Assembly: GCA_029289095.1 (NCBI GenBank)
Contig: JARFUG010000033.1
Coordinates: 1 to 35,656 of the forward strand
Reading direction: 5' to 3'
From: Desulfuromonadales bacterium
Lineage (GTDB): Bacteria; Desulfobacterota; Desulfuromonadia; Desulfuromonadales; JACZKF01
DNA length: 35,656 bases
The position numbers and the translations under genes were made by a program. The notes under the pieces are model-generated. The model saw only the letters and a list, made by a program, of their open reading frames with translations, did no database searches and had not been told where the DNA came from. Shown one piece after another: positions 321 through 32,743 of the stretch; positions within the stretch are counted from its first letter, which is position 1, and each line of letters opens with the position of its first letter.

Positions 321-680
321 ATGCTGCTGGATAGTTATCTGCCGATCCTGGTTCTCATCGCCATTGCCGTTGCCTTTGCCATCGGCTCGGTGGTCTTCTC
401 TCGTCTGGTCGGGCAGAAGAAGCCGACGGCGGTAAAGCTGGCTCCCTACGAGTGCGGCATGCCTCTGGTGGGCACTGCCCGCGAGAGGGTGTCGGTGAAA
501 TTTTATCTCGTCGCCGTCACCTTCATCGTCTTCGACATTGAGGTTGCATTTCTCTATCCCTGGGCCGTCGTCTTCAAGCAGCTCGGGCTTTACGGCGCCC
601 TGGCCATGGGCTTCTTTCTCTTTGTTCTGATCATCGGTTTCGTCTACGAATGGAAAAAAGGAGCACTCGAATGGGAGTAG
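321..680 (+). CDS. nuoA: NADH-quinone oxidoreductase subunit A
   Basis: Small membrane subunit of respiratory complex I, located at the junction of the peripheral and membrane arms next to NuoH and NuoB. The 119-residue protein has the usual three hydrophobic segments (about residues 8-30, 60-85 and 90-112). Between the first two is the conserved loop with YECGMPLVG; its Cys belongs to the quinone-site region. [11 protein letters not shown] in the second helix is a family hallmark. GGGAGGAG at 306-313 is a good ribosome binding site for the ATG. It is the first gene of the operon, and its end overlaps nuoB by 10 bases. Confidence 0.97.
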
Positions 681-1180
681 AAAATACCCTCGGCAACAAC
701 GTCATCGTCACCAGTCTCGACAAGGTCGTCAACTGGTCCCGCTCCAGGTCGATGTGGCCGATGACCTTCGGTCTGGCGTGCTGCGCCATCGAGATGATGG
801 CTGCCGGCGCTGCCCGCTTCGATCTCGACCGCCTGGGCGTCCTCTTTCGTGCCTCTCCCCGCCAGGCCGACCTCATCATCATTGCGGGGACGGTGACCAA
901 GAAGATGCTTCCGGTCATCAAAACGGTCTACGAGCAGATGCCCGAGCCGCGCTACGTCATCGCCATGGGAGCCTGCGCCTGTTCCGGCGGGATCTTCGAC
1001 AGCTACAGCGTGGTGCAGGGAATTGATGAAGAGCTGCCGGTCGATGTCTATGTTCCCGGCTGTCCTCCGCGCCCCGAAGGGCTGATCTACGGCCTGAACA
1101 AGCTGCAGGAGAAGATCATGAAGGAGCGCAACTCCTTCGGCGCCGCCATCGGTATCGGCGAGCGGATCAGCCCGGCCTGA
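671..1180 (+). CDS. nuoB: NADH-quinone oxidoreductase subunit B
   Basis: Peripheral-arm subunit that holds cluster N2, the last iron-sulfur centre before quinone. The protein has 169 residues. [11 protein letters not shown] gives the tandem Cys pair; the remaining cluster ligands come from GACACSGG and [10 protein letters not shown], the order usual for the family. The start at 671 (MGVENTLG) is preferred to an in-frame ATG at 650 because AAGGAG at 658-663 is well placed for it and the family N-terminus fits. The start lies inside the end of nuoA, which suggests translational coupling. Confidence 0.97.
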
Positions 1181-1211
1181 AGGGCCATTCCAACCACAGG
1201 GATGACACGAT

Positions 1212-1694
1212 ATGACTGAGCATGTAGCGGTTTCCAAGCTTAAGGAGAAATTCTCCGACTCCATCCTGAATGTTGCCGAATTCCGGGGTGAAACGACGGT
1301 GACGGTCAAGCGCGACGACATCGTCTCCATCTGTGCCTTTCTCAAGCAGGACATCGGCTTCAATTTCCTTACCGACCTCTGCGGTGTCGATTATCTCGGC
1401 AAGTCGCCGCGTTTCATGGTCGTCTATCACCTCTACAGCATCGGCAACAAGGTGCGTCTGCGCCTCAAGGTTCCTGTTCCCGAGAACGACCCGCGCGTCG
1501 ACACGGTGAGCGGGGTCTGGGGGACCGCGAGCTGGCACGAGCGCGAGTGCTGGGATCTGATGGGGATCTCCTTCAACAAGCACCCCGACCTGCGCCGCAT
1601 CCTGATGCCGGCCGACTGGGAAGGGCATCCGCTGCGTAAGGATTATCCGTTGCAGGGCCCCGACCGCGCCCCCTACCAGGGGCGAGTGTCCTGA
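1212..1694 (+). CDS. nuoC: NADH-quinone oxidoreductase subunit C
   Basis: Hydrophilic 30-kDa-type subunit of the complex I connecting module, which packs against NuoD and carries no cofactor. The protein has 160 residues. The C-terminal signature is clear: WHERECWDLMGISFNKHPDLRR followed by the motif around GHPLRKDYP, the 30-kDa subunit hallmark. It is a separate gene here, unlike the fused nuoCD of E. coli. It follows nuoB by 31 bases and precedes nuoD by 37. Confidence 0.96.
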   Translation: MTEHVAVSKLKEKFSDSILNVAEFRGETTVTVKRDDIVSICAFLKQDIGFNFLTDLCGVDYLGKSPRFMVVYHLYSIGNKVRLRLKVPVPENDPRVDTVSGVWGTASWHERECWDLMGISFNKHPDLRRILMPADWEGHPLRKDYPLQGPDRAPYQGRVS

Positions 1695-1731
1695 TCCGTT
1701 TGCGATTTCATTTCCCGAAAAGAGGCACGTG

Positions 1732-2913
1732 ATGGCAACCAAAGAGACGATGACCATAAACATGGGGCCGCAGCATCCCTCGACCCACGGGGTTCTGCAG
1801 CTTGTGCTCGAACTCGACGGCGAGGTGGTGGTCAAGGCGGTTCCGCATATCGGCTTTCTGCACCGCGGGGTCGAGAAGATCGCCGAGTACCGCACCTACC
1901 ACCAGGCTCTTCCCCTGACCGACCGGCTCGACTACCTGGCCCCGATGCACAACAACCTGGGCTATGTTCTGGCGGTCGAGAAACTGCTCGGAATCACCGA
2001 CATGATTCCGGAGAGGGCCACCACAATCCGCGTGATCATGGCCGAACTCACCCGGCTCAAGAGCCACTTGGTCTGGCTTGCGACGCACGCCCTCGATATC
2101 GGGGCGATGACCGTGTTTATCTACTGCTTCCGTGAGCGCGAGCGCGTCATGGACATGTACGAGAAGGTCTCCGGCGCCCGCATGACCTCCAATTACCTGA
2201 AGGTCGGCGGCCTCATGGCCGATCTTCCGGATGGGATGGAGAAGGAGATCCGCGACTTCGTCAACGAGATGCCCGGTCACGTGGACACCTACGAGGGTCT
2301 TCTCACTGGCAACAGGATCTGGCAGAAGCGCATCCAGGGGGTCGGGGTCATCAGCGCCGAAGCGGCCATCGACATGGGCGTTTCCGGCCCCTCCTTGCGC
2401 GGTTCCGGCGTCGATTGGGATCTGCGTCGAGACGATCCCTACTGCGGGTATGAGACGTACGAGTTCAAGGTTCCGACGGGTACGGGAGAAGGCGACACCT
2501 GGAGCCGCTACAAGGCTCGTCTGGACGAAATGCGCGAATCGTGCAAGATCATCCACCAGGCACTCGACCGTCTCAAGCCCGGTCCCATCCTGGCGGACTG
2601 CCCCAAGATCTGCCTCCCTCCCAAGAAAGACGTCGTCAACTCCATCGAGGGGCTGATCCATCATTTCAAGATCGTCAGCGAAGGCTACAAGCCTGAGCCG
2701 GGCGAGGTCTACGTTGGAGTCGAAAATCCCAAAGGCGAGCTCGGCTTCTATATCGTTTCCGACGGTTCGGCCAAGCCCTATCGGATGAAGATTCGCCCCC
2801 CCTCATTTGTCAATCTGCAGGCCCTTCCCCAGATGGTCGAGGGGAGGCTCCTTGCCGATGTGGTTGCCATCATCGGCACCCTGGATATCGTTCTCGGCGA
2901 AATCGACCGGTAA
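1732..2913 (+). CDS. nuoD: NADH-quinone oxidoreductase subunit D
   Basis: The 49-kDa-type subunit, related to the large subunit of NiFe hydrogenases, which forms the quinone pocket with NuoB. The protein has 393 residues. Visible hallmarks are MGPQHPSTHGVL near the N-terminus (the His and Thr that contact quinone), HRGVEKIAEYRTYHQ, the C-terminal PKGELGFYIVSDG, and the ending DIVLGEIDR. The hydrogenase nickel-ligand cysteines are absent, as expected in complex I. A GTG at 1729 directly precedes the ATG at 1732; the ATG fits AAAAGAGG at 1717-1724 better. Confidence 0.97.
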   Translation: MATKETMTINMGPQHPSTHGVLQLVLELDGEVVVKAVPHIGFLHRGVEKIAEYRTYHQALPLTDRLDYLAPMHNNLGYVLAVEKLLGITDMIPERATTIRVIMAELTRLKSHLVWLATHALDIGAMTVFIYCFRERERVMDMYEKVSGARMTSNYLKVGGLMADLPDGMEKEIRDFVNEMPGHVDTYEGLLTGNRIWQKRIQGVGVISAEAAIDMGVSGPSLRGSGVDWDLRRDDPYCGYETYEFKVPTGTGEGDTWSRYKARLDEMRESCKIIHQALDRLKPGPILADCPKICLPPKKDVVNSIEGLIHHFKIVSEGYKPEPGEVYVGVENPKGELGFYIVSDGSAKPYRMKIRPPSFVNLQALPQMVEGRLLADVVAIIGTLDIVLGEIDR

Positions 2914-2939
2914 CCCTCAGCGAGAAAGAGGTTTCGGCA

Positions 2940-3434
2940 ATGAGCAGCACTGCGGAAAATGTTCAGGAAGAAATCGACCTCGGCCCGGCCAACAAGGTCA
3001 TCGACAAGTATCTGACGATGAAAGGGGCGCTGATGCCGGTCCTGCAGGAAATCCAGGAGGAATACGGCTACATCCCCGAGCCGACGGTTCATCTGGTCGC
3101 CGAGCGTCTTAACGTCTATTCCAGCCAGATTTTCGGCGTTCTCACCTTCTACGCACAGTTCCACCTGGAGCCAAGGGGTAAGTACATCATTCGTGTCTGC
3201 ATGGGAACGGCCTGTCACGTCAAGGGAGCAGGCCGCATCGCAGATACGCTCGAGGAGCGCCTGGGGATCGGCCACGCCCAGACGACCGAAGATCTCAAGT
3301 TCACGGTCGAGCATGTGGCCTGCATCGGGGCCTGCGGCATGGCGCCCGTCATCATGGTCAACGACGCGACTTTCGGGAGCCTGTCGGTTCAGAAGCTCGA
3401 CGAAGTCATCGTCAAGTACAAGGCCATGGACTAG
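2940..3434 (+). CDS. nuoE: NADH-quinone oxidoreductase subunit E
   Basis: The 24-kDa-type subunit with a thioredoxin-like fold and one [2Fe-2S] cluster (N1a), part of the NADH-oxidising module with NuoF. The protein has 164 residues. The four ligands are visible as C87 and C92 in CMGTAC and C128 and C132 in CIGAC, giving the usual Cx4C and Cx3C spacing. The N-terminal helical part contains GALMPVLQEIQEEYGYIP, typical of the family. GAGAAAGAGG just upstream is a strong ribosome binding site. It is followed after 45 bases by nuoF. Confidence 0.96.
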   Translation: MSSTAENVQEEIDLGPANKVIDKYLTMKGALMPVLQEIQEEYGYIPEPTVHLVAERLNVYSSQIFGVLTFYAQFHLEPRGKYIIRVCMGTACHVKGAGRIADTLEERLGIGHAQTTEDLKFTVEHVACIGACGMAPVIMVNDATFGSLSVQKLDEVIVKYKAMD

Positions 3435-3479
3435 AGTCCGTCGTTTTGAAACCATTTACCGAGCGGGGATCATTCTATT

Positions 3480-5261
3480 ATGGCCGCTAATGCTGAACAA
3501 ATAAGAGTTCTCATCTGTACCGGAACCGGGGGTCTGGCATCCGGCGCCCGCGAAGTCGCCGATGCCTTTGCGGCAGAATTCGCCAAGCAGGGGGTCGAGG
3601 CCAAGATCGGCAAACGGTGTCAGGTGGTCGGAACAGGGTGCCGCGGGCTGTGCGCCAACGACGTTCTGGTCGACATCGTCATCCCCGGACAGGAGGCGGT
3701 GACCTACGACTTTGTCACCCCCGAGCTCGTCCCTCAGATCATCGAAGAGCATGTGCTGGGCAACGAGCCGATCGTCAAGAAGAAAGCCGGACCCTACTAC
3801 GCCAAGTTCCTCGAAAAACAGCAGCGCATCATCTTCTCGCGTTGCGGGACCATCGATGCTGAGAGCCTCGACGAATTCCTTGCCCACGACGGTTTCAAGG
3901 GGATCCGCAAGGCGGTCACCATGACGCAGCAGGAGGTCATCGAGGAAGTCAAGAAATCGGGTCTTCGCGGTCGTGGGGGCGGTGGATTTCCCACCGGCGT
4001 GAAGTGGTCGTTCTGCGCTGCTTCTCCGGGAACCGACAAGTATCTCATCTGCAACGCCGACGAAGGGGACCCAGGGGCCTTCATGGACCGCTCCATCCTC
4101 GAGGGGGACCCCTACGGTCTCATTGAAGGGATGATGATCGGGGCTTACGCCATCGGCTGCAAGAACGGGTATGTGTATTGCCGCGCCGAATATCCTCTGG
4201 CCATCAAGCGCCTTCAGAAGGCGATCGACACCTGCTATGAGAAGGGGATCCTCGGCAAGGACTGCCTTGGGCTCGGCTTCGAGTTCAACCTGCGCATCAA
4301 GGCCGGAGCCGGCGCCTTCGTCTGCGGCGAAGAGACGGCGCTGATGGCCTCCATCGAGGGGCACCGCGGCATGTCCCGTCCCCGTCCCCCCTTCCCCGCT
4401 GTTCGCGGTCTCTGGGGGAAGCCGACAAACATCAACAACGTCGAGACCTTCGCCAACATTTCCTACATCTTCTACAAGGGCGCCGACTGGTTCTCCTCCA
4501 TCGGAACCGAGGGGACCAAGGGGACGAAGATCTTCGCTCTCACCGGCAAGGTCAAGCACACCGGCCTCGTTGAGGTTCCCGCGGGCACCACGATGAAAGA
4601 GGTCATCTACGACGTATGCGGCGGGATCCTGAACAACCGCAAGTTCAAGGCGGTTCAGGCCGGCGGACCCTCGGGGGGCTGTCTGCCTGCGGAGGCTCTC
4701 GACGCTCAGGTCGACTACGACTCTCTCATAAAGGCCGGCGCCATGATGGGTTCGGGCGGTCTCGTCGTCATGGACGAGACGACCTGTATGGTCGATATCG
4801 CCCGTTTCTTCCTCAACTTCACCCGCGTCGAGTCGTGCGGCAAGTGCGTCCCCTGTCGCATCGGCCTCAAGATCATGCTCGAGATCCTCGAGCGGATCAC
4901 CAAGGGCGAAGGGCAGGAAGGGGATATCGAGATGCTCGAGGACATGTCCAAGGACATCAAGAAGAGCTCCCTGTGCGGCCTTGGGCAGACTGCCCCAAAC
5001 CCGGTCCTCTCCACCATCCGCTACTTCCGTCATGAGTATGAAGCGCACATCAAGGACAAGCGCTGCCCCTCCAACAGCTGCAAGGAGCTGCTCAAGTTCG
5101 AGGTGGTCGAGGCGGCATGCAAGAAGTGCGGTCTGTGCTACAAGGTCTGCCCGGTCGATGCCATCAAGTGGGAGAAGGGTCAGCTTGCGGTCATCGACAA
5201 GTCCAAGTGCACCTTCTGCACGTCCTGCTACGACGCCTGTCGTTTCATGGCAATCGAGTAG
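3480..5261 (+). CDS. nuoF: NADH-quinone oxidoreductase subunit F, long form with extra Fe-S domains
   Basis: Flavoprotein of complex I that oxidises NADH with FMN and passes electrons to cluster N3. The protein has 593 residues against about 445 in E. coli. The extra length comes from an N-terminal thioredoxin-like domain (about 1-120) and a C-terminal 2[4Fe-4S] ferredoxin domain (about 537-593; C547/550/553/557 and C577/580/583/587). The core shows GLRGRGGGGFP near 161-170, the NADEGDPGAF motif, GAGAFVCGEETAL and the N3 ligands C453, C456, C459 and C499. In the N-terminal domain the usual second Cys is replaced (CTGTGG), leaving C13, C54 and C58, with C47 nearby. This domain order matches flavin subunits of NAD-linked and bifurcating hydrogenases as well as some deltaproteobacterial complexes I. 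Confidence 0.95.
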   Translation: MAANAEQIRVLICTGTGGLASGAREVADAFAAEFAKQGVEAKIGKRCQVVGTGCRGLCANDVLVDIVIPGQEAVTYDFVTPELVPQIIEEHVLGNEPIVKKKAGPYYAKFLEKQQRIIFSRCGTIDAESLDEFLAHDGFKGIRKAVTMTQQEVIEEVKKSGLRGRGGGGFPTGVKWSFCAASPGTDKYLICNADEGDPGAFMDRSILEGDPYGLIEGMMIGAYAIGCKNGYVYCRAEYPLAIKRLQKAIDTCYEKGILGKDCLGLGFEFNLRIKAGAGAFVCGEETALMASIEGHRGMSRPRPPFPAVRGLWGKPTNINNVETFANISYIFYKGADWFSSIGTEGTKGTKIFALTGKVKHTGLVEVPAGTTMKEVIYDVCGGILNNRKFKAVQAGGPSGGCLPAEALDAQVDYDSLIKAGAMMGSGGLVVMDETTCMVDIARFFLNFTRVESCGKCVPCRIGLKIMLEILERITKGEGQEGDIEMLEDMSKDIKKSSLCGLGQTAPNPVLSTIRYFRHEYEAHIKDKRCPSNSCKELLKFEVVEAACKKCGLCYKVCPVDAIKWEKGQLAVIDKSKCTFCTSCYDACRFMAIE

Positions 5262-5265
5262 TTCA

Positions 5266-5337
5266 GTGAGGTGTGAGGTGTGAGGTGTGAGGCAACGAGC
5301 CTTTCTTCCTCACCCCTCACTCCTTACCCCTCACTCC
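5266..5337. repeat. Heptamer tandem repeat forming an imperfect inverted repeat between nuoF and nuoG
   Basis: The left arm at 5266-5292 is GTGAGGT repeated three times plus GTGAGG. The right arm at 5308-5337 is built from two 14-base units CCCCTCACTCCTT(A/G) preceded by CCTCAC and is largely complementary to the left arm. The transcript could fold into a G-U-rich hairpin in a junction that otherwise needs no spacer. It lies in the reading frame of nuoG upstream of its real start, so it can be mistaken for coding sequence. Confidence 0.75.
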
Positions 5338-5355
5338 TTGAACGAGGTTACACAG

Positions 5356-7836
5356 ATGGTAACTCTGACTATCGACGGGAAACAGGTTCAGGTCAAAAAA
5401 ACGGCCACGATCTACGAGGCGGCTGAAGAAGCCGGTATCCAGATCCCGATTCTCTGCTATGCGAAAAAACTCCTCCCCTACGGGGCCTGCAGGGTCTGTC
5501 TTGTGGAAGTGGAACAGATGAAGGGGCGCCTCATTCCGGCTTGCACCACGCCGGTCACCGAAGGGATGGTGGTCACCACCACCTCCGAGGAGATCCGCAA
5601 GGTCCGCAAAACCGTTCTGGAGTTTCTCCTCGTCAACCACGTCATCGAATGTCCCGTGTGCGACAAGGGAGGCGAGTGTGACCTGCAGGATCTGACCTTC
5701 GATTACGAGGTCTATCCCAACCGCTTCACCGGTGAGAAGTTCAACCTCCCCACCGACGAGGTGAACCCTCTTATCGAGCGCAACATGAACCGCTGCGTCC
5801 TGTGCGGGAAGTGCGCAAGGGTCTGCGACGAAATCGTCGCCTACGGATCGTACTCCTTCATCAACCGCGGCTTCGAGTCGAAGATCGCCACCGCCTTCGA
5901 CCGCGGCCTCAACTGTGAGTTCTGCGGCCAGTGCGTCTCGATGTGCCCTGTCGGCGCTATCCTTCCGCGGCCGTTCAAGTTCAAGGCCCGCCCCTGGCAG
6001 CTCAAGGAAGTCGACACCGTCTGCGGCTATTGCGGCAACGGCTGCACCGTGACGCTCGGGGTTCTCAACGACAAGGTCGAGACGGTCCGATTCAATGACC
6101 GCACCGGCGTTAACGACGGCAATCTCTGCATCCGCGGCCGCTTCGGCTACAGCTTCATCAACAGCGACAAGCGTCTCACCCGCCCCTTGGTGCGCAAAGA
6201 CGGCGAGCTCGTTGAAGCCACCTGGCCTGAGGCCATCGAGGCGGTCGTCAGCGGTTTCTCAAAGGCCCGCACCGAAAAGGGGATCGGGATCGTCGCCGGC
6301 GGACGCCTGACCAACGAGGAGTACTTCCTTCTCAAGAACCTTGCCTTGGCGCTGGGGACCTCCAACCTCGACAACTCCGGGGGTGAGTGCTACAAGGGGG
6401 TGACCGAAGGACTCAAAGAGACCCTTGGTGTGGGCGCATCGACCGCGACCTTTCCCCAGGTCGAAGAGTGCGATGTGATCCTTGCGATTCGCTCTGACTT
6501 CTACGAGACGCACCCCGTTTTCGGCATGGTGGTCAACCAGGCGGTCAAGCGCAACCACGCCCAGCTCATCGTCGTGACCGACAAGAAAGGGAAATTCACC
6601 AAACTTCCCGACGCCGAAACGCTCCTGACCCGTCCGGGGCTGGAGGTCAACGTTCTCAACGCCATGGCCCAGACCCTTATTGCCGAGGGACTTGCCGTGA
6701 CCGAAGGAGTCGAGGGTCTCGCCGAGTTGAAGAAGTCCCTCGACGAGTACGCTCCCGAGAAGGTCGAGGCCGTCTCGGGGGTGTCCGCCGAGGCGATCCG
6801 CCAGGCTGCTCGCCAACTGGCCGGTGCCAAGAAAAGCGCCATTCTCCTCGCCTACGGGCTCCCCTACGTTGCGCAGAGTCGCGATCTTGCCGTCGCGGCG
6901 GCCAACCTCACCATACTGACAGGGGCCGCCGGCCGTGAAGGGAGCGGGATTTTCCTGTGCGGCGAGAAGTCGAACAGCCAGGGCGCACTTGACCTCGGCA
7001 TCATTCCTTCCAAGGACGGCCTCGGGGCTCAGGGAATGCTCAAAGCCGCCGCTGGCGGTGATCTCTCGGCCCTCTATGTGGTAGGCGAGGACATGCTCAG
7101 TTCCTACCCCGACTTTGCAGCGGTCGAAGAGGCGCTCAAGAAGGTCCCCTTCCTCGTAGTGCAGGATATCTTCCTCTCCGCCACCGCCCGGCAGGCCGAT
7201 GTCGTTCTGCCCGCTGCCTCCTTCGCTGAAAAGGAGGGCACCTTCACCAACGCCGAGCGCCGCATCCAGAGAGTGCGCCAGGGCGTTCCTCTCCCCGGTG
7301 AAGCGAAGACCGACTATGCCATCTTTGAAACGCTCTGCAGACGTTTCGGCCAGCAGGTGAGCTATACAGGACCTCAGTCCGTCTTCAGCGCCATCACCGA
7401 AAGCGTCGCCGGTTACGCCGGTATCGAATTCAGCGCCATCGGACCTCAGGGGGTCGTCTGGGGAGGCGAGACCCTTCCGGTCTCGCGCAGGAAGCTCGTG
7501 GGCGCAAAAGGCTCTTTTCCTCTCAATTCCCGGTACCAGCTCGTTACGGGGAGCGCCCTGTATCACAGCGGCACCGTCTCGACCCACGCTTCCGGGCCGC
7601 TGGCCGTCGTTCCTTCCGCCTACGTCGAATTGGGTCGCGAGGATGCCTCAGAGCTGAACGTGAAGGAAGGCGACGTCCTTACGCTTGTCGCCGACGGAGC
7701 CGAAGTCAAACTCCCGGTCAAGGTCGATCTGCGCCTGCCCAAAGGGGTTCTGTTCGCCCCCTATCATTTCCCCGGTAGCGGCATCAACCGCCTCTACAAG
7801 GGGCAAGCGGCCGTTGCAGTTGATGTTCGCAAGTAG
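5356..7836 (+). CDS. nuoG: NADH-quinone oxidoreductase subunit G, with an extra [4Fe-4S] motif
   Basis: Large peripheral subunit that wires electrons from NuoF towards NuoI. The protein has 826 residues. The ligand sets in order are C34/C45/C48/C63 ([2Fe-2S] N1b), H95/C99/C102/C108 (His-Cys3 cluster N5), C147/150/153/157 and C187/190/193/197 (two complete ferredoxin-type sets where the canonical subunit has only N4), and C223/C226/C230/C258 (N7). A molybdopterin-oxidoreductase-like domain fills the rest. The start at 5356 (MVTLTIDGKQ) has ACGAGG upstream at 5342-5347 and gives the normal N-terminus. A longer version from 5287 would only translate the repeat. The double ferredoxin set resembles formate dehydrogenase and NAD-linked hydrogenase subunits. 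Confidence 0.95.
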   Translation: MVTLTIDGKQVQVKKTATIYEAAEEAGIQIPILCYAKKLLPYGACRVCLVEVEQMKGRLIPACTTPVTEGMVVTTTSEEIRKVRKTVLEFLLVNHVIECPVCDKGGECDLQDLTFDYEVYPNRFTGEKFNLPTDEVNPLIERNMNRCVLCGKCARVCDEIVAYGSYSFINRGFESKIATAFDRGLNCEFCGQCVSMCPVGAILPRPFKFKARPWQLKEVDTVCGYCGNGCTVTLGVLNDKVETVRFNDRTGVNDGNLCIRGRFGYSFINSDKRLTRPLVRKDGELVEATWPEAIEAVVSGFSKARTEKGIGIVAGGRLTNEEYFLLKNLALALGTSNLDNSGGECYKGVTEGLKETLGVGASTATFPQVEECDVILAIRSDFYETHPVFGMVVNQAVKRNHAQLIVVTDKKGKFTKLPDAETLLTRPGLEVNVLNAMAQTLIAEGLAVTEGVEGLAELKKSLDEYAPEKVEAVSGVSAEAIRQAARQLAGAKKSAILLAYGLPYVAQSRDLAVAAANLTILTGAAGREGSGIFLCGEKSNSQGALDLGIIPSKDGLGAQGMLKAAAGGDLSALYVVGEDMLSSYPDFAAVEEALKKVPFLVVQDIFLSATARQADVVLPAASFAEKEGTFTNAERRIQRVRQGVPLPGEAKTDYAIFETLCRRFGQQVSYTGPQSVFSAITESVAGYAGIEFSAIGPQGVVWGGETLPVSRRKLVGAKGSFPLNSRYQLVTGSALYHSGTVSTHASGPLAVVPSAYVELGREDASELNVKEGDVLTLVADGAEVKLPVKVDLRLPKGVLFAPYHFPGSGINRLYKGQAAVAVDVRK

Positions 7837-7857: not shown

Positions 7858-8820
7858 ATGAAGTGTCCAAAGTGCGACGCGGCCCTCACGGCGCGGGCAA
7901 AATTCTGTGACCAGTGCGGGCTGGACCTGACCAGGAACACCGAGTTCCTCCACCAGAAGGCCGTCGACTGCTATCACAGAGGCCTTATCGATGATGCGCT
8001 CAAACTGTGGGACGAGGCCATCTCTCAGGACCATGCGTTCAGCAAAGGATTTTACTACAAGGGACTCGCCCTTTACGACCGGGGAGATCTCAGAGGGGCG
8101 ATCTCCTCGCTGCGCAAAGCTCTGGAAGGGGAGAAGGAGCCCTTCAGGGTCTATTTCAAGCTTGGAATGGCGCAGTACGGCCTGGGCGAACTCGCAGCAA
8201 GCATCGATAGCTTCGAACAGGCGCTCAGACTCAACCCGGGAAGCGCCGAGACCCATTATCGGTTGGGGCTGTGTCACCTGCGCACCTCCGACCTCGACCA
8301 GGCGGAAGAAAAACTCCTGGGAGCTATCAAGCTCAATCCCCAGTACACAAGGGCGCTCTACATCCTGGGGATGGTCTACTCCCAAATGGGAGACAACGCC
8401 CGGGCAATAGACCAGTTCCGCAAGGTCGAGCAGATCAGCCCTTCCTACACCGCGGCGCGCTTCGAACTCGGAATGGCTCTGTTTCGACAGGGCGATCTCG
8501 TCGAAGCCGCCGAGCAGTTCCGCAAGACCCTGGAGTGCAGCGCCCGATTCGCTCCGGCCCACTATATGCTGGGTGAATCACTTCGCAAGGGGGGAGAGTT
8601 CGGGGATGCGATCAGCGCCTACAACGAAGTGCTGAAGATCAATCCCAAGGACGCTGACGTCTATTTTCATCTGGCCGAGTGCAATCTTCAGCTCGACTTC
8701 ATGGATGCCGCCAGGGAGGCGATCTCCAGGGCGCTTGAAATCAACCCTCATCATCGTGACGCCGGGTACCTCCTGACGCAGATCGACAAGATGAGAACTC
8801 CACACAAACCGGGATTCTGA
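7858..8820 (+). CDS. Zinc-ribbon plus TPR-repeat protein inserted between nuoG and nuoH
   Basis: Protein of 320 residues with no signal peptide or membrane segment. C3, C6, C17 and C20 (CPKC and CDQC) form an N-terminal zinc ribbon. From about residue 30 to the end there are roughly eight tetratricopeptide repeats with the usual pattern of G/A and Y/F plus closing N-P (for example ALRLNPGSAETHYRLGLCH and ALEINPHHRDAGYLL). TPR arrays bind other proteins, so a scaffold or chaperone role is likely. CAGGAG at 7847-7852 supports the ATG at 7858. It lies 21 bases after nuoG and 45 before nuoH, on the same strand, so it is almost certainly co-transcribed with complex I. A role in assembling the complex is inference from position; an unrelated hitchhiker is possible. 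Confidence 0.9.
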   Translation: MKCPKCDAALTARAKFCDQCGLDLTRNTEFLHQKAVDCYHRGLIDDALKLWDEAISQDHAFSKGFYYKGLALYDRGDLRGAISSLRKALEGEKEPFRVYFKLGMAQYGLGELAASIDSFEQALRLNPGSAETHYRLGLCHLRTSDLDQAEEKLLGAIKLNPQYTRALYILGMVYSQMGDNARAIDQFRKVEQISPSYTAARFELGMALFRQGDLVEAAEQFRKTLECSARFAPAHYMLGESLRKGGEFGDAISAYNEVLKINPKDADVYFHLAECNLQLDFMDAAREAISRALEINPHHRDAGYLLTQIDKMRTPHKPGF

Positions 8821-8865: not shown

Positions 8866-9906
8866 ATGACCCCTGAACTGTTGAGCCTCTCGAACAACCT
8901 CCCATTGTTCCTGGGAACCATGATGGTGAAGATACTGGCCGTTTTCGTGGTGGTAATTCTGATCGTCGCCTACGCCACCTGGGTGGAGCGCAAGGTGATC
9001 GGCCACATGCAGGTCCGCCTCGGCCCCATGGAGACCGGATGGCACGGTCTGCTGCAGCCTATCGCCGACGGTCTGAAGCTCTTCTTCAAGGAGGACATCA
9101 TCCCGGCCCAGGCCAGCAAGGTCACCTTCATTCTCGCCCCCATGATGATTCTGGTTCCGGCGTTCATCACTTTCGCCGTCATCCCCTTCGGGCCTGACGT
9201 CACCATCGGAGGATACGTCGTCCATCAGCAGATCGCCGACCTGAACGTTGGAATCCTCTATATCCTCGCCATGGCAGGTCTCGGGGTCTACGGCATCGTG
9301 CTGGCGGGGTGGTCATCCAACAGCAAGTATTCGCTTCTGGGCGGCATTCGTTCCTCGGCGCAGATGATCTCCTATGAACTCGCCGCCGGCCTCTCCATCG
9401 TCGCGGTTTTCATGCTGGCCGAGACGCTGAGCCTGCGGGGGATCGTCCATGCCCAGATGACCTCCTTCCCCCTGATCCCCTTTCTGCCGAACTGGTACAT
9501 CTTTTCCCAGCCCTTGGCTTTCGGTCTCTTCGTGATCTGCGGCCTGGCTGAAATCAACCGCACCCCCTTCGACCTCCCCGAGGCCGAAACGGAACTCGTA
9601 TCGGGCTTCTGCACCGAATACTCTTCGATGAAGTACGCCCTCTTCTTCATGGCCGAATACGCCAATATGGTGGTTATCTCCGCCATCGCAGCCACCCTCT
9701 TCCTGGGCGGATGGCACGGACCCTTCCCGGGTGCGATCAACCTGTTGCTCAAGATCTTTGCCTTCATGTTTTTCTTCATCTGGTTGCGCGCTACTTTTCC
9801 CCGCGTCCGCTATGACCAGCTGATGTATCTGGGTTGGAAGATTTTCCTTCCTCTGGCGCTGGTCAACATCGTGATCACCGGCATCGTAGTACTTATCCTT
9901 TTGTAA
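8866..9906 (+). CDS. nuoH: NADH-quinone oxidoreductase subunit H
   Basis: Membrane subunit next to the quinone cavity that links the peripheral arm to the proton-pumping subunits. The 346-residue protein has about eight transmembrane helices. Hallmarks include the first loop motif WVERKVIGHMQVRLGPM, LQPIADGLKLFFKED, ERTPFDLPEAE-type INRTPFDLPEAETELV and EYSSMKYALFFMAEY, which carries acidic residues of the proposed proton entry. GAGGAAGAGG precedes the ATG. It is the first of the membrane-arm genes after the inserted TPR gene. Confidence 0.97.
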   Translation: MTPELLSLSNNLPLFLGTMMVKILAVFVVVILIVAYATWVERKVIGHMQVRLGPMETGWHGLLQPIADGLKLFFKEDIIPAQASKVTFILAPMMILVPAFITFAVIPFGPDVTIGGYVVHQQIADLNVGILYILAMAGLGVYGIVLAGWSSNSKYSLLGGIRSSAQMISYELAAGLSIVAVFMLAETLSLRGIVHAQMTSFPLIPFLPNWYIFSQPLAFGLFVICGLAEINRTPFDLPEAETELVSGFCTEYSSMKYALFFMAEYANMVVISAIAATLFLGGWHGPFPGAINLLLKIFAFMFFFIWLRATFPRVRYDQLMYLGWKIFLPLALVNIVITGIVVLILL

Positions 9907-9925
9907 CCCAACCGAGAGGAATGCC

Positions 9926-10321
9926 ATGTTCAAGGAATTCATCAAAGGTCTGAGCATCACCTTCAAGCATATGCTCCCGGGGAACAGCGTCACCGTGCAG
10001 TACCCCCACAGCAAGCTGACGCCCTCCAACCGCTTCCGCGGACTGCACCGGCTGGTTCCGGCGCACGATCGTGAGAAGTGCGTCGCATGCTACCTGTGTC
10101 CCACTGTCTGCCCGGCCAAGTGCATCACCGTCGAATCGGCCGAAAACGAGAAGGGCGAGAAGTACCCCAGGGTCTACAAGATCGACATGCTGCGCTGCAT
10201 CTTCTGCGGCTACTGTGTGGAGGCTTGCCCGGTGGAGGCGCTGGAGATGACCGATTCGTACGAACTGGCCAATTACCGGCGGGAAGACTTCATCTTCAAT
10301 AAAGAGCGGCTGCTCAAGTAA
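9926..10321 (+). CDS. nuoI: NADH-quinone oxidoreductase subunit I
   Basis: Ferredoxin-like 23-kDa-type subunit carrying clusters N6a and N6b, which pass electrons from NuoG to NuoB. The 131-residue protein is near the short end of the family. Two complete CxxCxxCxxxCP sets are visible: C52/C55/C58/C62 with C66, and C91/C94/C97/C101. GAGAGGAA just upstream is the ribosome binding site. It lies 19 bases after nuoH and 21 before nuoJ, in the standard order. Confidence 0.97.
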   Translation: MFKEFIKGLSITFKHMLPGNSVTVQYPHSKLTPSNRFRGLHRLVPAHDREKCVACYLCPTVCPAKCITVESAENEKGEKYPRVYKIDMLRCIFCGYCVEACPVEALEMTDSYELANYRREDFIFNKERLLK

Positions 10322-10342
10322 TCCCTTTAGGAGCGTCGAAGC

Positions 10343-10846
10343 ATGGAACTCATTTTTTTCTATCTGGTCGCCCTGGTCGCCGTCACCTCCGGTTTTCTGG
10401 TCATAACCTGTCAGAACCCGGTCAACAGCGCCATTTCTCTTGTCATGACCTTCTTCTGCCTGGCCGTCTTCTACGTCATGCTCCATGCGCCCTTCATGGC
10501 AGCGGTTCAGATCCTGGTCTACGCCGGGGCCATCATGGTCCTGATCCTCTTCGTGATCATGCTGCTCAACCTCGGAGCAGAGTCCAAGAGGCGCTACGCC
10601 CATAACGTCGTCGGCGGGGCAGCCGCGGGCGTCGTGGTTCTTCTCATCGGCAGTTTCATCGTCCTGAGGGGACAGGTGACCGGTCTGGTCGGGGACATCA
10701 CTCCCCAGGTCATCGAGCAGGTCGGTCACACCGAACTGATTGGGCAGACACTCTTCACACGGTATCTTCTGCCTTTTGAAATCACCTCGATTCTGTTGCT
10801 GGTAGCCATTGTCGGAGCCATCGTCCTGGCCAAGAAGGAAGTCTGA
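10343..10846 (+). CDS. nuoJ: NADH-quinone oxidoreductase subunit J
   Basis: Membrane subunit of 167 residues with five hydrophobic helices, homologous to mitochondrial ND6. The conserved stretch with [10 protein letters not shown] in helix two and [21 protein letters not shown] in helix three (the helix containing the flexible bulge seen in structures) identifies the family. TTTAGGAGCG upstream is a good ribosome binding site. The stop is 22 bases before the start of nuoK. Confidence 0.96.
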
Positions 10847-10868
10847 AGATCCCTACAGGAGAAGGAAC

Positions 10869-11171
10869 ATGTTGACAGTCCATCATTATCTTGTGCTTGG
10901 TGCGATACTCTTCACCCTGGGGACCATCGGAGTCCTGACCCGGCGCAATGCGATCGTTATTTTCATGTGCATCGAACTGATGCTCAACTCGGTGAACCTC
11001 ACGTTTATCGCCCTCTCCCGACATCTGGGGAATCTGGACGGTCAGATATTCGTCTTCTTCGTCATGGCCGTTGCGGCGGCCGAGGCGGCCATCGGGCTCG
11101 CCTTGATGATCACCTTCTTCCGCAATAAAGAATCGGTGAATGTCGAAGACTTCAACTTGTTGAAATCGTAA
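10869..11171 (+). CDS. nuoK: NADH-quinone oxidoreductase subunit K
   Basis: Small membrane subunit of exactly 100 residues with three transmembrane helices, an antiporter-related half module homologous to ND4L. The intramembrane glutamates are visible in [12 protein letters not shown] and in the [10 protein letters not shown] segment. The ATG at 10869 is used because ACAGGAGAAGG lies directly upstream and the family begins this way. A frame opening earlier at 10809 runs inside nuoJ and is not needed. Confidence 0.96.
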
Positions 11172-11215
11172 TAGAAGGAATCCGTTCAGGTTTATTCCGT
11201 CTAGAGGAGAGATAG

Positions 11216-13192
11216 ATGCACAGCTACGACTATCTATGGCTTATTCCGCTCTTTCCCCTTCTGGGAGCACTCATCAACGGGCTTCTGGGGAAGAAGATCA
11301 AGAACGAGACGGTGATCGGCGCCATCGGCACGCTGGCGATCGCTTCTTCCTTCGTGATCTCTGTCATCTACTTCTTCCGCCTGCTCGGTGATTCCCAGAA
11401 GGTCCATGAACAGGTCATCGCCTCCTGGATCTCGGTTGGGACGCTTCAGGTCGACTGGGGTTTTCTCTTCGACCCCCTCAGCGCCCTCATGCTCCTGGTC
11501 GTCACCGGGGTCGGCTCCCTGATTCACCTCTACTCCATCGGCTACATGCACGGGGAAGAGGGGTACTACAGATATTTTTCCTACCTGAACCTCTTCTGTT
11601 TCTCGATGCTGATGCTCGTCCTCGGCAACAACGCCCTGGTGATGTTCATCGGATGGGAAGGGGTCGGGCTCTGTTCCTACCTTCTTATCGGCTATTACTT
11701 CCATAAGAAGAGCGCCGGCGATGCGGCCAAGAAGGCCTTCGTGGTCAACCGTGTCGGGGACTTCGGTTTCCTTCTGGGACTCTTTCTCCTGTTCTGGACC
11801 CTCGGAAGCGCGCACGGCGTCTGGACCGTCAACTTCGTCGAGATCCAGGCCAACGCCCATCTTCTCGGTGCTGGCGGGGCCATCGTGACGGCGATCACAC
11901 TCCTCTTTTTCCTCGGCGCCACAGGCAAATCGGCTCAGATCCCGCTCTACACCTGGTTGCCCGACGCCATGGAAGGTCCCACCCCGGTTTCTGCACTGAT
12001 CCATGCCGCGACCATGGTCACCGCAGGCGTTTACATGATCGCCAGAATGAACGGCCTTTTCGCCATGGCGCCCGATACCATGATGGTCATCGCCATCGTC
12101 GGCGCAGCCACCGCCATCTTCGCCGCCAGCATCGGCCTGGCCCAGAACGACATCAAGCGCGTCCTGGCCTACTCCACGGTTTCGCAGCTCGGCTTTATGT
12201 TTCTTGCCGTCGGGGTCGGCGCCTTTACGGCCGGCGTTTTCCACCTGATGACTCACGCGTTCTTCAAGGCCTGCCTCTTTCTCGGCTCGGGCTCGGTCAT
12301 CCACGCCATGCATCATGCCCTGCACCATGCGCACGTTCACGACGATCCTCAGGACATGCGCAATATGGGGGGTCTGCGCAAGCACATGCCGATCACGCAT
12401 ATCACCTTTCTTGTCGCCACCTTGGCCATCGCAGGCGTTCCTCTCTTCTCCGGGTTCTTCTCCAAAGACGAGATCCTGCACTGGGCCATTGGGTCGACTC
12501 ACGGGCACTGGGGGCTGTGGCTTGTTGCCCTCTTCACTGCCGGCCTGACCGCCTTCTACATGTTCCGTCTCGTCTTCATGACCTTCTACGGACAGGAGCG
12601 CATGGTCGAGAAGGCGAAAAAGCACCTGCACGAATCACCGGCCGTCATCACCATTCCCCTCATCGTCCTGGCCGTCCTTTCGGTCTTCGGCGGTTACGTC
12701 GGGGTTCCGGAGCTGATGTGGGGCGCACATCGCCTCGAGCATTTCCTCGACCCGGTATTCGGTGCGACGATGGCGACCTACGGCATCGGTATGCTGCCGC
12801 ACTCCGCTGCCTTCGAGTGGGGGATGGTCGCCGCTGCCGTCATCGTAGCGACATCGGGTATTCTGCTGGCCGTCTTCATGTACCACATGCGCCCCGACCT
12901 CCCCGGAAAAGTCGTTGCATCCTTCCAGGGGGCCTACAGGACCATTCACAATAAATGGTATGTCGATGAGATCTACGACGCTCTCTTCGTCAATCCCACC
13001 AAGCGCCTCGGCACTTTTCTGTGGAAAGGGTTCGATGTCAAGGGAATCGACGGGATCGTCAACGGCCTCGGCAAACTGGTGCAGCTCTTCTCGGGGGCCC
13101 TTCGAATCACCCAGAGCGGCCTGGTGCATAATTACGCCCTCACCATGGTCCTCGGGATGGTGGTGATCGTCGCCTTCTACGTCTTCAGGTAA
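11216..13192 (+). CDS. nuoL: NADH-quinone oxidoreductase subunit L
   Basis: Largest membrane subunit, an antiporter-like proton-translocating unit at the distal end of the membrane arm, with a long lateral helix. The 658-residue length fits. Conserved stretches include FVGWEGVGLCSYLLIGYY-type FIGWEGVGLCSYLLIGYY with the key Glu, the KSAQIPLYTWLPDAMEGPTP loop, HAATMVTAGVY, and FSKDEI in the C-terminal half. GAGGAGAG upstream of the ATG is a strong ribosome binding site. A His-rich loop follows the FLGSG segment (HAMHHALHHAHVHDD), as in many homologues. Confidence 0.97.
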   Translation: MHSYDYLWLIPLFPLLGALINGLLGKKIKNETVIGAIGTLAIASSFVISVIYFFRLLGDSQKVHEQVIASWISVGTLQVDWGFLFDPLSALMLLVVTGVGSLIHLYSIGYMHGEEGYYRYFSYLNLFCFSMLMLVLGNNALVMFIGWEGVGLCSYLLIGYYFHKKSAGDAAKKAFVVNRVGDFGFLLGLFLLFWTLGSAHGVWTVNFVEIQANAHLLGAGGAIVTAITLLFFLGATGKSAQIPLYTWLPDAMEGPTPVSALIHAATMVTAGVYMIARMNGLFAMAPDTMMVIAIVGAATAIFAASIGLAQNDIKRVLAYSTVSQLGFMFLAVGVGAFTAGVFHLMTHAFFKACLFLGSGSVIHAMHHALHHAHVHDDPQDMRNMGGLRKHMPITHITFLVATLAIAGVPLFSGFFSKDEILHWAIGSTHGHWGLWLVALFTAGLTAFYMFRLVFMTFYGQERMVEKAKKHLHESPAVITIPLIVLAVLSVFGGYVGVPELMWGAHRLEHFLDPVFGATMATYGIGMLPHSAAFEWGMVAAAVIVATSGILLAVFMYHMRPDLPGKVVASFQGAYRTIHNKWYVDEIYDALFVNPTKRLGTFLWKGFDVKGIDGIVNGLGKLVQLFSGALRITQSGLVHNYALTMVLGMVVIVAFYVFR

Positions 13193-13235
13193 GAGTCCGT
13201 TTGATCTGCGACAGAGAATTAAGGAGCTATTTCCA

Positions 13236-14789
13236 ATGACCGACCATCTTCTCAGCCTGATGACCTTCTTCCCGATCCTCGGGATGGTGGCACTCCTTTT
13301 CCTGCCCAAGGAAAACGGAAACCTCATCAAGGGGTTCACCCTGGTGGTGACGATCATCGTCTTTTTCATCAGCCTCCCGTTGGCCTTCAACGACGTCTTC
13401 AAGACCTCGGCCGGGATGCATTACACCGAGTTCGTTCCCTGGATCAGCGTCGGTGAATTCTTCACGATGAACTATTCGGTCGGCGTCGATGGGATCAGCC
13501 TCTGGCTCATTCTTCTGACGACCTTCATCATGCCGATCGCGATCCTCTCCACCTGGCATGCCGTCGACAAGAACGTCAAGGGATTCATGGCCCTGGCGCT
13601 CCTGCTGGAAACTGCAATGCTCGGCGCCTTCATCTCCCTCGATCTCTTTCTCTTCTACATCTTCTGGGAGCTGATGCTGATTCCGATGTATTTCATGATC
13701 GGCATCTGGGGAGGAAAGAATCGCATCTACGCCGCCGTTAAGTTCTTTATCTTCACCGCTGTCGGCTCTCTGCTGATGCTGGTCGCCGTCATCTACGTCT
13801 ACTACTATGCGATCCAGTCCGGCATTGACATGAGCGGCTTCAGCATCACCCAGTTCTACCAGGTCGCCATCCCGGCTGAGATCCAGACCTGGCTCTTCCT
13901 GGCGTTCGCCTTCAGCTTCGCCATCAAGGTGCCGATGTTCCCGGTCCACACCTGGTTGCCCGATGCCCACACGGAGGCGCCGACCGCTGGTTCCGTCATT
14001 CTGGCGGCGATCCTCCTGAAGATGGGGACCTACGGCTTCCTGCGCTTCGCCATGCCGCTCTTCCCCGATGCGACCCATCAGTTCATCCCCTTCCTGGCGC
14101 TTCTCTCGGTCATCGGGATTATTTATGGGGCGCTGGTCGCCATGATGCAGGACGACATCAAGAAGCTCGTCGCCTATTCTTCGGTCTCGCATCTCGGCTT
14201 CGTCATGCTCGGGGTCTTCGCCCTCAACCTTCAAGGGCTCTCCGGCGGGATGATCCAGATGATCAACCACGGCATCACCACCGGCGCGCTCTTCCTTATC
14301 GTCGGATTCCTTTACGAACGACGCCATACCCGTGAGATCGCCCAGTTCGGAGGTCTCGCCAAGAGGATGCCGATTTTCGCCACGATCTTCCTGATCATGA
14401 CCTTCTCCTCCATCGGTCTGCCCGGAACCAACGGGTTTGTCGGTGAATTCCTGATCCTTATGGGCGCTTTCGAGAGCCAACTGCGTTGGTTCGCCGTCTT
14501 CGCAACCACCGGCGTCATTCTTGCCGCCGTCTACATGCTCTGGATGTACCAGCGTGTCATGTTCGGAGAGCTGAAGAATCCGGCGAACGAGAAGCTCAAG
14601 GATCTCTCCGGCAGGGAGATCGCCCTCATGGCGCCGTTGCTTCTGTTCGTCTTCTGGATCGGTCTTTACCCCAACCCGTTTTTCGAGAAGATGACCCCTG
14701 CTCTGGAACAGCTCCTGCAGCAGGTTAACGGTACCGAGATCGTAGCCATGGTCGAACCGGCGCAGATTCAGCTTCCTGAATTGAAATAA
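13236..14789 (+). CDS. nuoM: NADH-quinone oxidoreductase subunit M
   Basis: Second antiporter-like proton-pumping subunit, with about 14 transmembrane helices in 517 residues. Hallmarks are FYIFWELMLIPMYFMIGIWG with the essential Glu, KVPMFPVHTWLPDAHTEAPT, the Lys-containing DDIKKLVAYSSVSHLGFVML segment, and FSSIGLPGTNGFVGEF. It starts 43 bases after nuoL behind a TAAGGAG-type ribosome binding site and ends 36 bases before nuoN. Confidence 0.97.
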   Translation: MTDHLLSLMTFFPILGMVALLFLPKENGNLIKGFTLVVTIIVFFISLPLAFNDVFKTSAGMHYTEFVPWISVGEFFTMNYSVGVDGISLWLILLTTFIMPIAILSTWHAVDKNVKGFMALALLLETAMLGAFISLDLFLFYIFWELMLIPMYFMIGIWGGKNRIYAAVKFFIFTAVGSLLMLVAVIYVYYYAIQSGIDMSGFSITQFYQVAIPAEIQTWLFLAFAFSFAIKVPMFPVHTWLPDAHTEAPTAGSVILAAILLKMGTYGFLRFAMPLFPDATHQFIPFLALLSVIGIIYGALVAMMQDDIKKLVAYSSVSHLGFVMLGVFALNLQGLSGGMIQMINHGITTGALFLIVGFLYERRHTREIAQFGGLAKRMPIFATIFLIMTFSSIGLPGTNGFVGEFLILMGAFESQLRWFAVFATTGVILAAVYMLWMYQRVMFGELKNPANEKLKDLSGREIALMAPLLLFVFWIGLYPNPFFEKMTPALEQLLQQVNGTEIVAMVEPAQIQLPELK

Positions 14790-14825
14790 GTCTCAACGCA
14801 CTACCGCTTCCGGAGGAGCCCTTTC

Positions 14826-16286
14826 ATGGAAAATCTGGTACAAGAGGCTATTGCGAACGTCAATTTCGCGGCGATCATGCCATCGCTGGTATTGACACTG
14901 TTCGGAATGGCGATCCTGCTCGTCAGCGTATTTTTACCTCGCGGGTCGACCACCCCGGTCGCATGGCTCAGCGTCGTGGCCCTGGTCGTCACCGGCTTCG
15001 TCTCCCTCGGCGCCTGGAATAACCCCGAAGTCGGGTTTTACGGGCATGTGGCACTTGATAACTTCGCCACTTTCTTCAACATTATCTTCCTGGTGTCAGC
15101 CGCCCTGACGATCCTGATCTCAGACGACTACCTGAGGCGCGAGGGTTATCCGGTCGGCGAGTATTACCCGCTCATCCTCTTCGCGACGGCGGGCGCGATG
15201 TGGATGGCCTCAGGAACCGACCTGCTCACGATCTTCCTCGGTCTGGAGGTCCTCTCGGTATCGCTCTACGTCCTCGCCGGTTTCTTCAGAGGGCAGTTGC
15301 GTTCCAACGAGGCGGGTCTCAAGTACTTCCTTCTCGGCTGCTTCGCTACCGGTTTTCTGCTCTACGGCATCGCCCTGCTCTATGGTGTGACCGGCACGAC
15401 CAACATCGCCGATATCGGGATGTACTTCGCCCAGAACCCGGCCTACATCTCCAACATCATGACGCTCGGCGGGGTCGGCCTCCTGAGCATCGGATTTCTT
15501 TTCAAGATCGGGGTCGTTCCCTTCCACATGTGGACTCCCGACGTCTATCAGGGCGCCCCGACGCCGATCACCGCCTTTATGAGCGCCGGTCCCAAGGCCG
15601 CAGCCTTTGCCGGTTTTCTGCGGGTTCTCCTCCTCGCGCTCCCGGCTCTTCAGCCCGAGTGGTCGACCATGTTCTGGATCCTGGCAGTCCTCACCATGAT
15701 CGTGGGCAACGTGATTGCCATCAGCCAGACCGACATTAAGAGAATGCTCGCCTTCTCCTCCATCGCTCATGTCGGCTACGCGCTGGTCGGGCTCGTTGCA
15801 GCAAACGAAATTGGTATTTCCGGGATCCTCTTCTACCTTCTTGCTTATACCTTCATGAACATCGGCGCTTTCGCCGTTCTCGTACTGGCCGGCAAGAAGG
15901 GGGAGGACAACCTGACTCTGGACGGAATGGCCGGCTTCGGCTACAAGCGCCCCTTCCTCGCCGTGGCGATGTCCATCTTCCTCGTCTCTCTGATGGGGAT
16001 CCCCCCGACGGCCGGATTCGCCGGCAAGTTCTACATCTTTGCAGGTGCGGTGGAGGCCGGCTATATCTGGCTCGTCGTCATCGGCGTCTTGAACTCCGCC
16101 GTTTCGCTCTATTATTACCTTCGGGTCATGGTTTACATGTACTTCAGGGATCCTGCGGAAGATTTCGGATGGGTTAAAATGCCTGCGGCCGCAGTTGTTT
16201 CCATCGTGCTGTCTGTCGTCGGGGTCCTCTATCTCGGAGTGCTTCCCGGCGCCGTCATGGAGATCGCAAAGCTCGCAATTTTCTAA
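14826..16286 (+). CDS. nuoN: NADH-quinone oxidoreductase subunit N
   Basis: Third antiporter-like subunit and the last gene of the operon; 486 residues with about 14 helices. Visible hallmarks are FLGLEVLSVSLYVLAGF with the key Glu, FKIGVVPFHMWTPDVYQGAP, QTDIKRMLAFSSIAHVGYAL and GIPPTAGFAGKFYIF. CGGAGGAG just before the ATG is a strong ribosome binding site. Its stop is followed after 26 bases by a strong intrinsic terminator. Confidence 0.97.
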   Translation: MENLVQEAIANVNFAAIMPSLVLTLFGMAILLVSVFLPRGSTTPVAWLSVVALVVTGFVSLGAWNNPEVGFYGHVALDNFATFFNIIFLVSAALTILISDDYLRREGYPVGEYYPLILFATAGAMWMASGTDLLTIFLGLEVLSVSLYVLAGFFRGQLRSNEAGLKYFLLGCFATGFLLYGIALLYGVTGTTNIADIGMYFAQNPAYISNIMTLGGVGLLSIGFLFKIGVVPFHMWTPDVYQGAPTPITAFMSAGPKAAAFAGFLRVLLLALPALQPEWSTMFWILAVLTMIVGNVIAISQTDIKRMLAFSSIAHVGYALVGLVAANEIGISGILFYLLAYTFMNIGAFAVLVLAGKKGEDNLTLDGMAGFGYKRPFLAVAMSIFLVSLMGIPPTAGFAGKFYIFAGAVEAGYIWLVVIGVLNSAVSLYYYLRVMVYMYFRDPAEDFGWVKMPAAAVVSIVLSVVGVLYLGVLPGAVMEIAKLAIF

Positions 16287-21107: not shown

Positions 21108-21562
21108 GCGGGAAAGGTGAAGAGGTGAGAGAGATCAGGAAAATCGATGTGGCCTGCGCCCTGATCGAACGGGACGGACTCGTATTGGCTGCCCAGCGCA
21201 GCGAGACGATGAGCCTCCCGCTCAAATGGGAGTTTCCCGGCGGAAAGATCGACGCCCACGAGAGTGCCGAGAGTTGCCTGGAGCGTGAAATCGAAGAAGA
21301 ACTCGGAGTCGGCATCCGAATTGTTGCACCCCTTCCCCCCTCCGACTGGTGCTATCCCGATTTCGCCATCACGCTTCACCCCTTCGTCTGCACCCTGGCA
21401 GGCGAAGAGATACGGCTGCTGGAACACAAGGAGATCCGGTGGCTTTCCCCGGCGAGGCTGCACGAGCTAGACTGGGCGGAGGCCGATGCACCGGTGCTGG
21501 AAAATTATTTCAGGTACCTGGAGAGAAGGGGGGAGGCGCCCCGGCGCACCCGGCTGGCTTGA
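21104..21562 (+). CDS. Nudix hydrolase, MutT-like
   Basis: Nudix enzymes hydrolyse nucleoside diphosphates linked to another group. The 152-residue protein has a complete Nudix box, GX5EX7REUXEEXGU, starting at the G of GKIDAHE and ending REIEEELGV. The N-terminal VACALIERDGLVLAAQRS strand and WEFPGGK are typical of 8-oxo-dGTP/CTP pyrophosphohydrolases (MutT/NudG). The start is taken at 21104, overlapping the hyuA stop as ATGA; a GTG at 21125 is also possible. It sits inside the hyuA-hyuB pair. It may be a house-cleaning enzyme trapped in the operon or may act on a nucleotide by-product; nothing in the sequence decides this. Confidence 0.9.
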   Translation: MSGKGEEVREIRKIDVACALIERDGLVLAAQRSETMSLPLKWEFPGGKIDAHESAESCLEREIEEELGVGIRIVAPLPPSDWCYPDFAITLHPFVCTLAGEEIRLLEHKEIRWLSPARLHELDWAEADAPVLENYFRYLERRGEAPRRTRLA

Positions 21563-21652
21563 ACGCCCGTTTCATTGACCCTGCAGCTCTGTGATTCGGC
21601 GTCATCGCCGTCAGGGGCGTCGCCTGATAGCATTGAGAAAAGGCCTGATTCG

Positions 21653-23233
<1,581 letters not shown>

Positions 23234-23276
23234 GTGATCGCGACTGCGGTTCTGTCCTCGACCCCGGAGAGCGGCC

Positions 23277-31939: not shown

Positions 31940-32010
31940 TGTAGGGGCGATCCTTGTGATCGCCCTTTCCTGGTGATCGCACAAGGGCGAATACAAGATT
32001 CGCCCCTACA
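31940..32010. repeat. 71-base intergenic element with perfect 11-base terminal inverted repeats
   Basis: TGTAGGGGCGA at 31940-31950 and its exact reverse complement TCGCCCCTACA at 32000-32010 bound the element. Inside are further self-complementary parts: GGGCGATCCTTGTGATCGCCC on the left and GGGCGAATACAAGATTCGCCC on the right each form a hairpin. Elements with these TAGGGGCGA ends are scattered between genes in many bacterial genomes and resemble REP or MITE sequences. It fills the whole gap between the prenyltransferase and UbiX genes, and its last base is the A of a possible upstream ATG for ubiX. Confidence 0.85.
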
Positions 32011-32021
32011 TGGGGGATGCC

Positions 32022-32630: not shown

Positions 32631-32632
32631 GG

Positions 32633-32665: not shown

Positions 32666-32743
32666 AATGCCTGCATTGGTTTTAGCGTCGCGTCGTCGCG
32701 TGAGGCCGGTTTTCGAATTTATCTCATTTTGGATTGTCCGTTT

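Follow-up and report, generated by a model that had tools for sequence, protein, structure and literature searches.

Closest described systems

Among described proteins with tetratricopeptide repeats (TPRs), LapB (YciM), which acts in the FtsH-mediated turnover of LpxC, combines a TPR array with a small Cys4 metal module. In LapB a membrane anchor occupies the N-terminus and a rubredoxin-type metal site the C-terminus. MamA is a TPR scaffold of the magnetosome, and both the consensus CTPR designs and the TPR domain of O-GlcNAc transferase form a continuous eight-repeat superhelix in a 34-residue register. On the side of complex I, the relevant comparison is with its accessory subunits and assembly factors. 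Loss of a whole operon is documented for Pelobacter carbinolicus, in which the fourteen structural genes of one complex I are all gone while a second complex I persists (PMC2923632); the text of that paper makes no mention of tetratricopeptide proteins or of an embedded fifteenth gene. A described TPR protein within a nuo operon was not found in the literature searched, which bears out the view of the first-pass annotation of this DNA that such a protein is undescribed.

Operon membership is often taken as shared function, and the locus presented here offers a natural test. It lies in a stretch of 35,656 nucleotides, termed the window (contig JARFUG010000033.1 of assembly GCA_029289095.1, Desulfuromonadales bacterium), in which a gene for a zinc-ribbon/TPR protein, named TPRZ here, is embedded in the operon of complex I. 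Like the CTPR designs and the O-GlcNAc transferase domain, TPRZ is modelled as a continuous eight-repeat superhelix in 34-residue register; the superhelical match covers residues 28-299 and not the zinc ribbon, and the shared fold is silent on function. The MamA family (NF040959) gives the best NCBIfam score (139.1 bits, E 1.3e-40), and a MamA-type fold is also matched (3vtx, Z 22.6, 170 residues). TPRZ is nevertheless not MamA: the score lies below the family cut-off of 200, no magnetosome genes are seen in the window, and a zinc ribbon is present. LapB shares the combination of a TPR array and a Cys4 module, an analogy of working only, with 47.1 bits against a cut-off of 363; the metal site of TPRZ is N-terminal rather than C-terminal and begins at residue 3, leaving no space for an anchor. 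The accessory subunits and assembly factors of complex I resemble TPRZ in nuo operon position, but unlike them TPRZ is untied to the presence of complex I in both directions.

The gene and its product

The features that concern the gene itself are as follows.

321..7836, plus strand: nuoA-nuoG (Pfam, NCBIfam, tblastn)
7858..8820, plus strand: TPRZ, zinc-ribbon/TPR adaptor gene, 320 residues (open reading frame, Pfam, orthologues, AlphaFold2 model)
7858..7920, plus strand: predicted N-terminal zinc ribbon, residues 1-21 (C3, C6, C17, C20 and G21 invariant)
7939..8754, plus strand: eight TPRs, residues 28-299 (AlphaFold2 model, exact 34-residue register)
8797..8817, plus strand: C-terminal tail TPHKPGF, residues 314-320 (no ordered structure in the model; conservation at the protein level)
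8866..16286, plus strand: nuoH-nuoN (Pfam, NCBIfam, tblastn)

The window thus holds a complete nuoA-N operon in standard order. The reading frame of TPRZ runs on the plus strand from ATG to stop (7858-8820), and the protein begins with MKCPKCDAALTARAKFCDQCG. A gap of 21 bp separates it from the end of nuoG (7836), and a gap of 45 bp from the start of nuoH (8866). The first-pass annotation had described these points correctly, including the gene order, the length of 320 residues, the four cysteines, about eight TPRs and the tight spacing on one strand. Judged from spacing alone, TPRZ and the nuo genes are probably co-transcribed; a consensus scan of the plus strand gave no promoter-like site in the nuoG-nuoH interval, and a search of the entire window gave zero matches to Rfam families.

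The product is a TPR protein, with tandem 34-residue helix-turn-helix units recognised by the TPR models and Pfam TPR_1/TPR_2 matches well above the cut-off (E down to 4e-48). Zinc-ribbon models respond weakly (E 3.7e-5; Pfam Zn_Ribbon_1 at 23.8 bits against a cut-off of 25). C3, C6, C17 and C20 are invariant in all 37 orthologues aligned, and these conserved CxxC-x10-CxxC knuckles mark a predicted metal site. An AlphaFold2 model built from the 37 orthologues (mean pLDDT 94.9) consists of a compact zinc ribbon, eight TPRs starting every 34 residues (28, 62, 96, 130, 164, 198, 232 and 266), a capping helix at 300-311 and, last, a tail that is disordered. Overall it has the usual shape of a TPR superhelix, and the closest structural match is 8chy (Z 29.6, 1.8 A over 272 residues). 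As a guide to the client, the fold search was uninformative, retrieving only generic TPR superhelices.

Distribution and descent

TPRZ is a real gene family restricted to one order. Orthologues are present in 40 of the 98 genomes of the order, with that of the window counted, and they are 49-70% identical and, with one exception, full length. Outside the order, none was found in the rest of the 277 genomes of the class (E 1e-60) or, by profile search, in an evenly drawn sample of 395 genomes of the phylum (E 1e-45). A single-sequence, pattern-based contig scan yielded just generic TPR proteins of 23-31% identity and no orthologue. The class-wide result agrees with the statement of the first-pass annotation that Geobacter sulfurreducens has no gene at this position.

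In 28 of the 40 orthologues nuoH lies directly downstream, mostly 40-90 bp away, and in one genome (G045) the stop of TPRZ falls on the start of nuoH. The other twelve belong to a single family, f4, which is treated below. Outside f4, all 28 orthologues are found between nuoG and nuoH and nowhere else, and because the same site recurs in every case the placement is more than chance. The conserved gene stands at the boundary between peripheral-arm and membrane-arm genes, to which the first-pass annotation had drawn attention. A full reading of sixteen operons, those of the window and of 15 relatives, gave the order nuoA-G, TPRZ, nuoH-N every time.

The operon, on the other side, does not require the gene. 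When nuoH genes of at least 73% identity are counted as type 1, a comparison of TPRZ and NuoH coordinates gives 75 such genomes among the relatives, 28 with TPRZ and 47 without it. In 14 operons lacking TPRZ, nuoG adjoins nuoH with short gaps in 12, and nuoD adjoins nuoH in two, both from family f18. These two f18 loci (L071, 9928-10026, from G041; L155, from G032) run from nuoA-D to nuoH-N with no nuoE, nuoF or nuoG between them, the gap in L071 being 98 bp, suggesting a complex I at the type-1 locus that would lack the NADH-oxidising module.

The presence and absence of TPRZ needs at least eight changes on the rpoB tree and at least six on the concatenated-Nuo tree, and it changes even within families f5 and f12, which is well supported in both. 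Trees alone cannot separate gain from loss, and their best reading is early presence followed by repeated loss. In the tree of TPRZ itself, f4, f12, f14 and f19 each group together, f6, f1 and f5 are split or unresolved, and the f5 copies sit on long branches. Horizontal spread was considered, but this mainly family-wise tree suits mostly vertical descent with repeated loss. TPRZ diverges faster than NuoH, at 50-70% against about 74-88% identity in the same genome pairs. In genus g24 (L065 from G036, L066 from G025) the branch is very long (1.31) and the tail is gone, with the gene still between nuoG and nuoH; an f5 relative of g24, G005, has lost TPRZ altogether.

Family f4, in which the operon is gone and the gene is kept

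Family f4 is monophyletic in the rpoB tree (98/98) and in the TPRZ tree (99/99). Twelve of its genomes keep TPRZ, in all twelve it is unlinked to nuo, and none has a type-1 nuoH. The first-pass annotation had named homologues without nuo linkage as grounds for refuting its proposal, and this whole family supplies them; the link to nuo stands for the other 28 of the 40. Most f4 genomes retain a second, distant complex I, with a NuoH about 50-54% identical to that of the window, and one of them (G004) repeats the pattern described in PMC2923632, with one complex I gone and a second kept. In three others, searches with the Pfam families of NuoH and NuoD returned no match of any type, the controls being positive; these genomes are 99% (G035), 100% (G066) and 89% (G078) complete. 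In f4, the embedded fifteenth gene was spared when the operon went, and it stayed under selection. Between G035 and G078, both free of complex I, dN is 0.03, dS 0.43-0.53 and the ratio w 0.06-0.07. For nuo-embedded pairs w is mostly 0.05-0.08, with 0.12-0.20 in the close pair G025/G036, and all TPRZ pairs tested are under purifying selection (w 0.04-0.20).

The surroundings of TPRZ in f4 recall two further segments of the window.

19104..24686, plus strand: hydantoinase/caprolactamase-like alpha and beta genes, then a ubiD-family gene (homology; the flank remaining beside TPRZ in nuo-deleted f4)
32010..35003, plus strand: ubiX, mqnE and mqnC, for menaquinone synthesis by the futalosine pathway (homology)

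To the right of TPRZ in f4 stand hydA-hydB-ubiD or ubiD alone, the genes found 3' of nuo in the window. To the left stands pcnB, named by reading of the sequence (poly(A) polymerase/CCA-transferase family); TPRZ follows it at about 40-70 bp in L055, L057, L061, L063 and L064, and in L055 miaA is located upstream on the opposite strand. The f4 locus looks like the nuo locus minus nuo. One simple deletion does not fully account for the layout, as the right flank matches the window and the left one does not. Elsewhere, with few exceptions among the genomes checked, pcnB is unlinked to nuo, so that a second rearrangement on the left side is needed.

The concave groove and the favoured reading

Conservation is concentrated on the concave face of the superhelix. 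The concave sites (helix A positions 2, 5, 9, 12 and 13) have a mean entropy of 0.62, compared with 0.87 at TPR core positions and 1.54 at the remaining TPR sites (concave versus remaining, p 7e-8). Within the groove, fifteen residues do not vary across the 37 sequences, whether these are nuo-embedded or come from f4 (H32, H40, Y66, Y73, D74, R97, Y107, E131, Y134, R142, R165, Q176, F202, P233 and E240), and the same holds for G108 and L138. When 18 concave positions invariant among nuo-embedded copies are followed into f4, 17 are identical in every copy, and E274 is retained in 7 of 10. The conservation extends mainly over repeats 1-7 and is highest in repeats 2-5. Together with the fold class, it suggests a peptide- or protein-binding adaptor.

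The reading that we favour, with some reservation, is a soluble zinc-ribbon/TPR adaptor that is housed in the nuo operon and has a core function independent of complex I. The groove of the eight-repeat superhelix would bind a peptide or protein present with or without complex I, and the zinc ribbon may serve as a second contact surface. On this reading, the gene has been passed on mainly by vertical descent within the nuo operon, and is probably co-expressed with it. It can nevertheless be lost without the operon, just as the operon can be lost without the gene. Retention under selection where complex I is missing shows that the core client of TPRZ is something else, barring a change of purpose in f4. 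Family f4 separates TPRZ from complex I and points to a client common to cells with and without the complex. Two points can be set against the adaptor reading, namely that TPRZ in f4 may have acquired a new role once the operon was lost, and that the strict adherence to the nuoG-nuoH site outside f4 exceeds what a pure passenger would need, with a tail that is itself nuo-associated.

The C-terminal tail and complex I

The specific link of TPRZ to complex I that remains is the tail TPHKPGF. It is exact in 23 of the 28 nuo-embedded copies and recognisable in two more (G045 and G092); that of G021 ends in PGY. It is absent from the nuo-embedded f5 copies G025 and G036, apparently also from G054, and from all 11 full-length f4 copies. 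In each of nine tail-bearing genomes tested, the PHKPGF-stop pattern has one match, always at TPRZ. Conservation of the tail as DNA, as in an overlapping regulatory element, is ruled out by codons that vary at synonymous sites. Most positions at which the residue switches between the nuo-embedded group and the f4 group lie from repeat 8 onward (Q278, D280, D283, Y304 and the tail).

Such a distribution leaves room for an extra contact with complex I, and hence for a dual role, in which repeat 8, the cap and the tail would let a general adaptor also dock on type-1 complex I, or help to assemble it, with the groove given over to a different client. This proposal is possible but doubtful. It is favoured by a tail kept as protein, confined to TPRZ and to nuo-embedded copies, and by the clustering of switching sites around it, and is weakened by the embedded copies without a tail. 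Moreover, the tail was probably lost in a single event on the f4 stem, so that its correlation with nuo reflects few events. The partner offers little sign of such a contact. Across all 14 Nuo subunits of 16 operons with and 14 without TPRZ, a single column (NuoM 445) tracks the gene, no C-terminal tail or subunit length does so, and no Nuo subunit displays a matching change. Any narrower accessory role in complex I through the tail is weakly indicated. Slightly more tentative is the idea that the groove takes a general client and that the unique C-terminal peptide, as a separable second surface, couples this client or its process to type-1 complex I; when the operon was deleted, the tail would have been discarded and the rest kept.

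Other explanations and the right-hand flank

The first-pass annotation had proposed a factor dedicated to complex I that would link its two arms in assembly or regulation, and the strict and tightly spaced position in the 28 orthologues outside f4 lends this some colour. An assembly factor or accessory subunit should be present only with complex I and be required by its cognate operon type. TPRZ persists in three genomes that have neither NuoH nor NuoD (G035, G066, G078), with purifying selection measured between G035 and G078, and is missing from 47 of the 75 type-1 operons, and a dedicated arm-joining factor is accordingly very improbable and largely refuted.

A factor tied to menaquinone metabolism instead of complex I, as its UbiD, UbiX and Mqn neighbours might suggest, is about as improbable and ranks just below. 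In f4, TPRZ lies at most about 150 bp upstream of ubiD (L057, L059-L061) or precedes hydAB-ubiD, and mqnE/mqnC homologues occur further downstream in several f4 genomes, as they do 3' of nuo in the window. The adjacency can, however, be a mere leftover of the nuo deletion, and a ubiD-family gene also stands beside nuoN where TPRZ is missing. The proximity of ubiD and mqn genes in f4 offers no more than a lead. Least credible of all is a neutral passenger with no selected function, which frequent loss would suit and which is refuted by the dN/dS values of every pair, the zinc cysteines and groove being invariant as well.

Some minor observations concern the flank itself. A ubiD-family gene immediately after nuoN is common in the order, TPRZ-free genomes included (L072-L074). 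In the window, nuoN is followed at 16457-24686 by a glycoside hydrolase family 65 gene, the caprolactamase/hydantoinase-like pair and the UbiD-family gene. The interval 24740-29780 holds Mla-type lipid ABC transporter genes (permease, ATPase, one unassigned open reading frame and an ABC-associated lipoprotein), after which come a bacteriohemerythrin gene and a patatin-like gene. Finally, ubiX, mqnE and mqnC of the futalosine pathway share one window with complex I.
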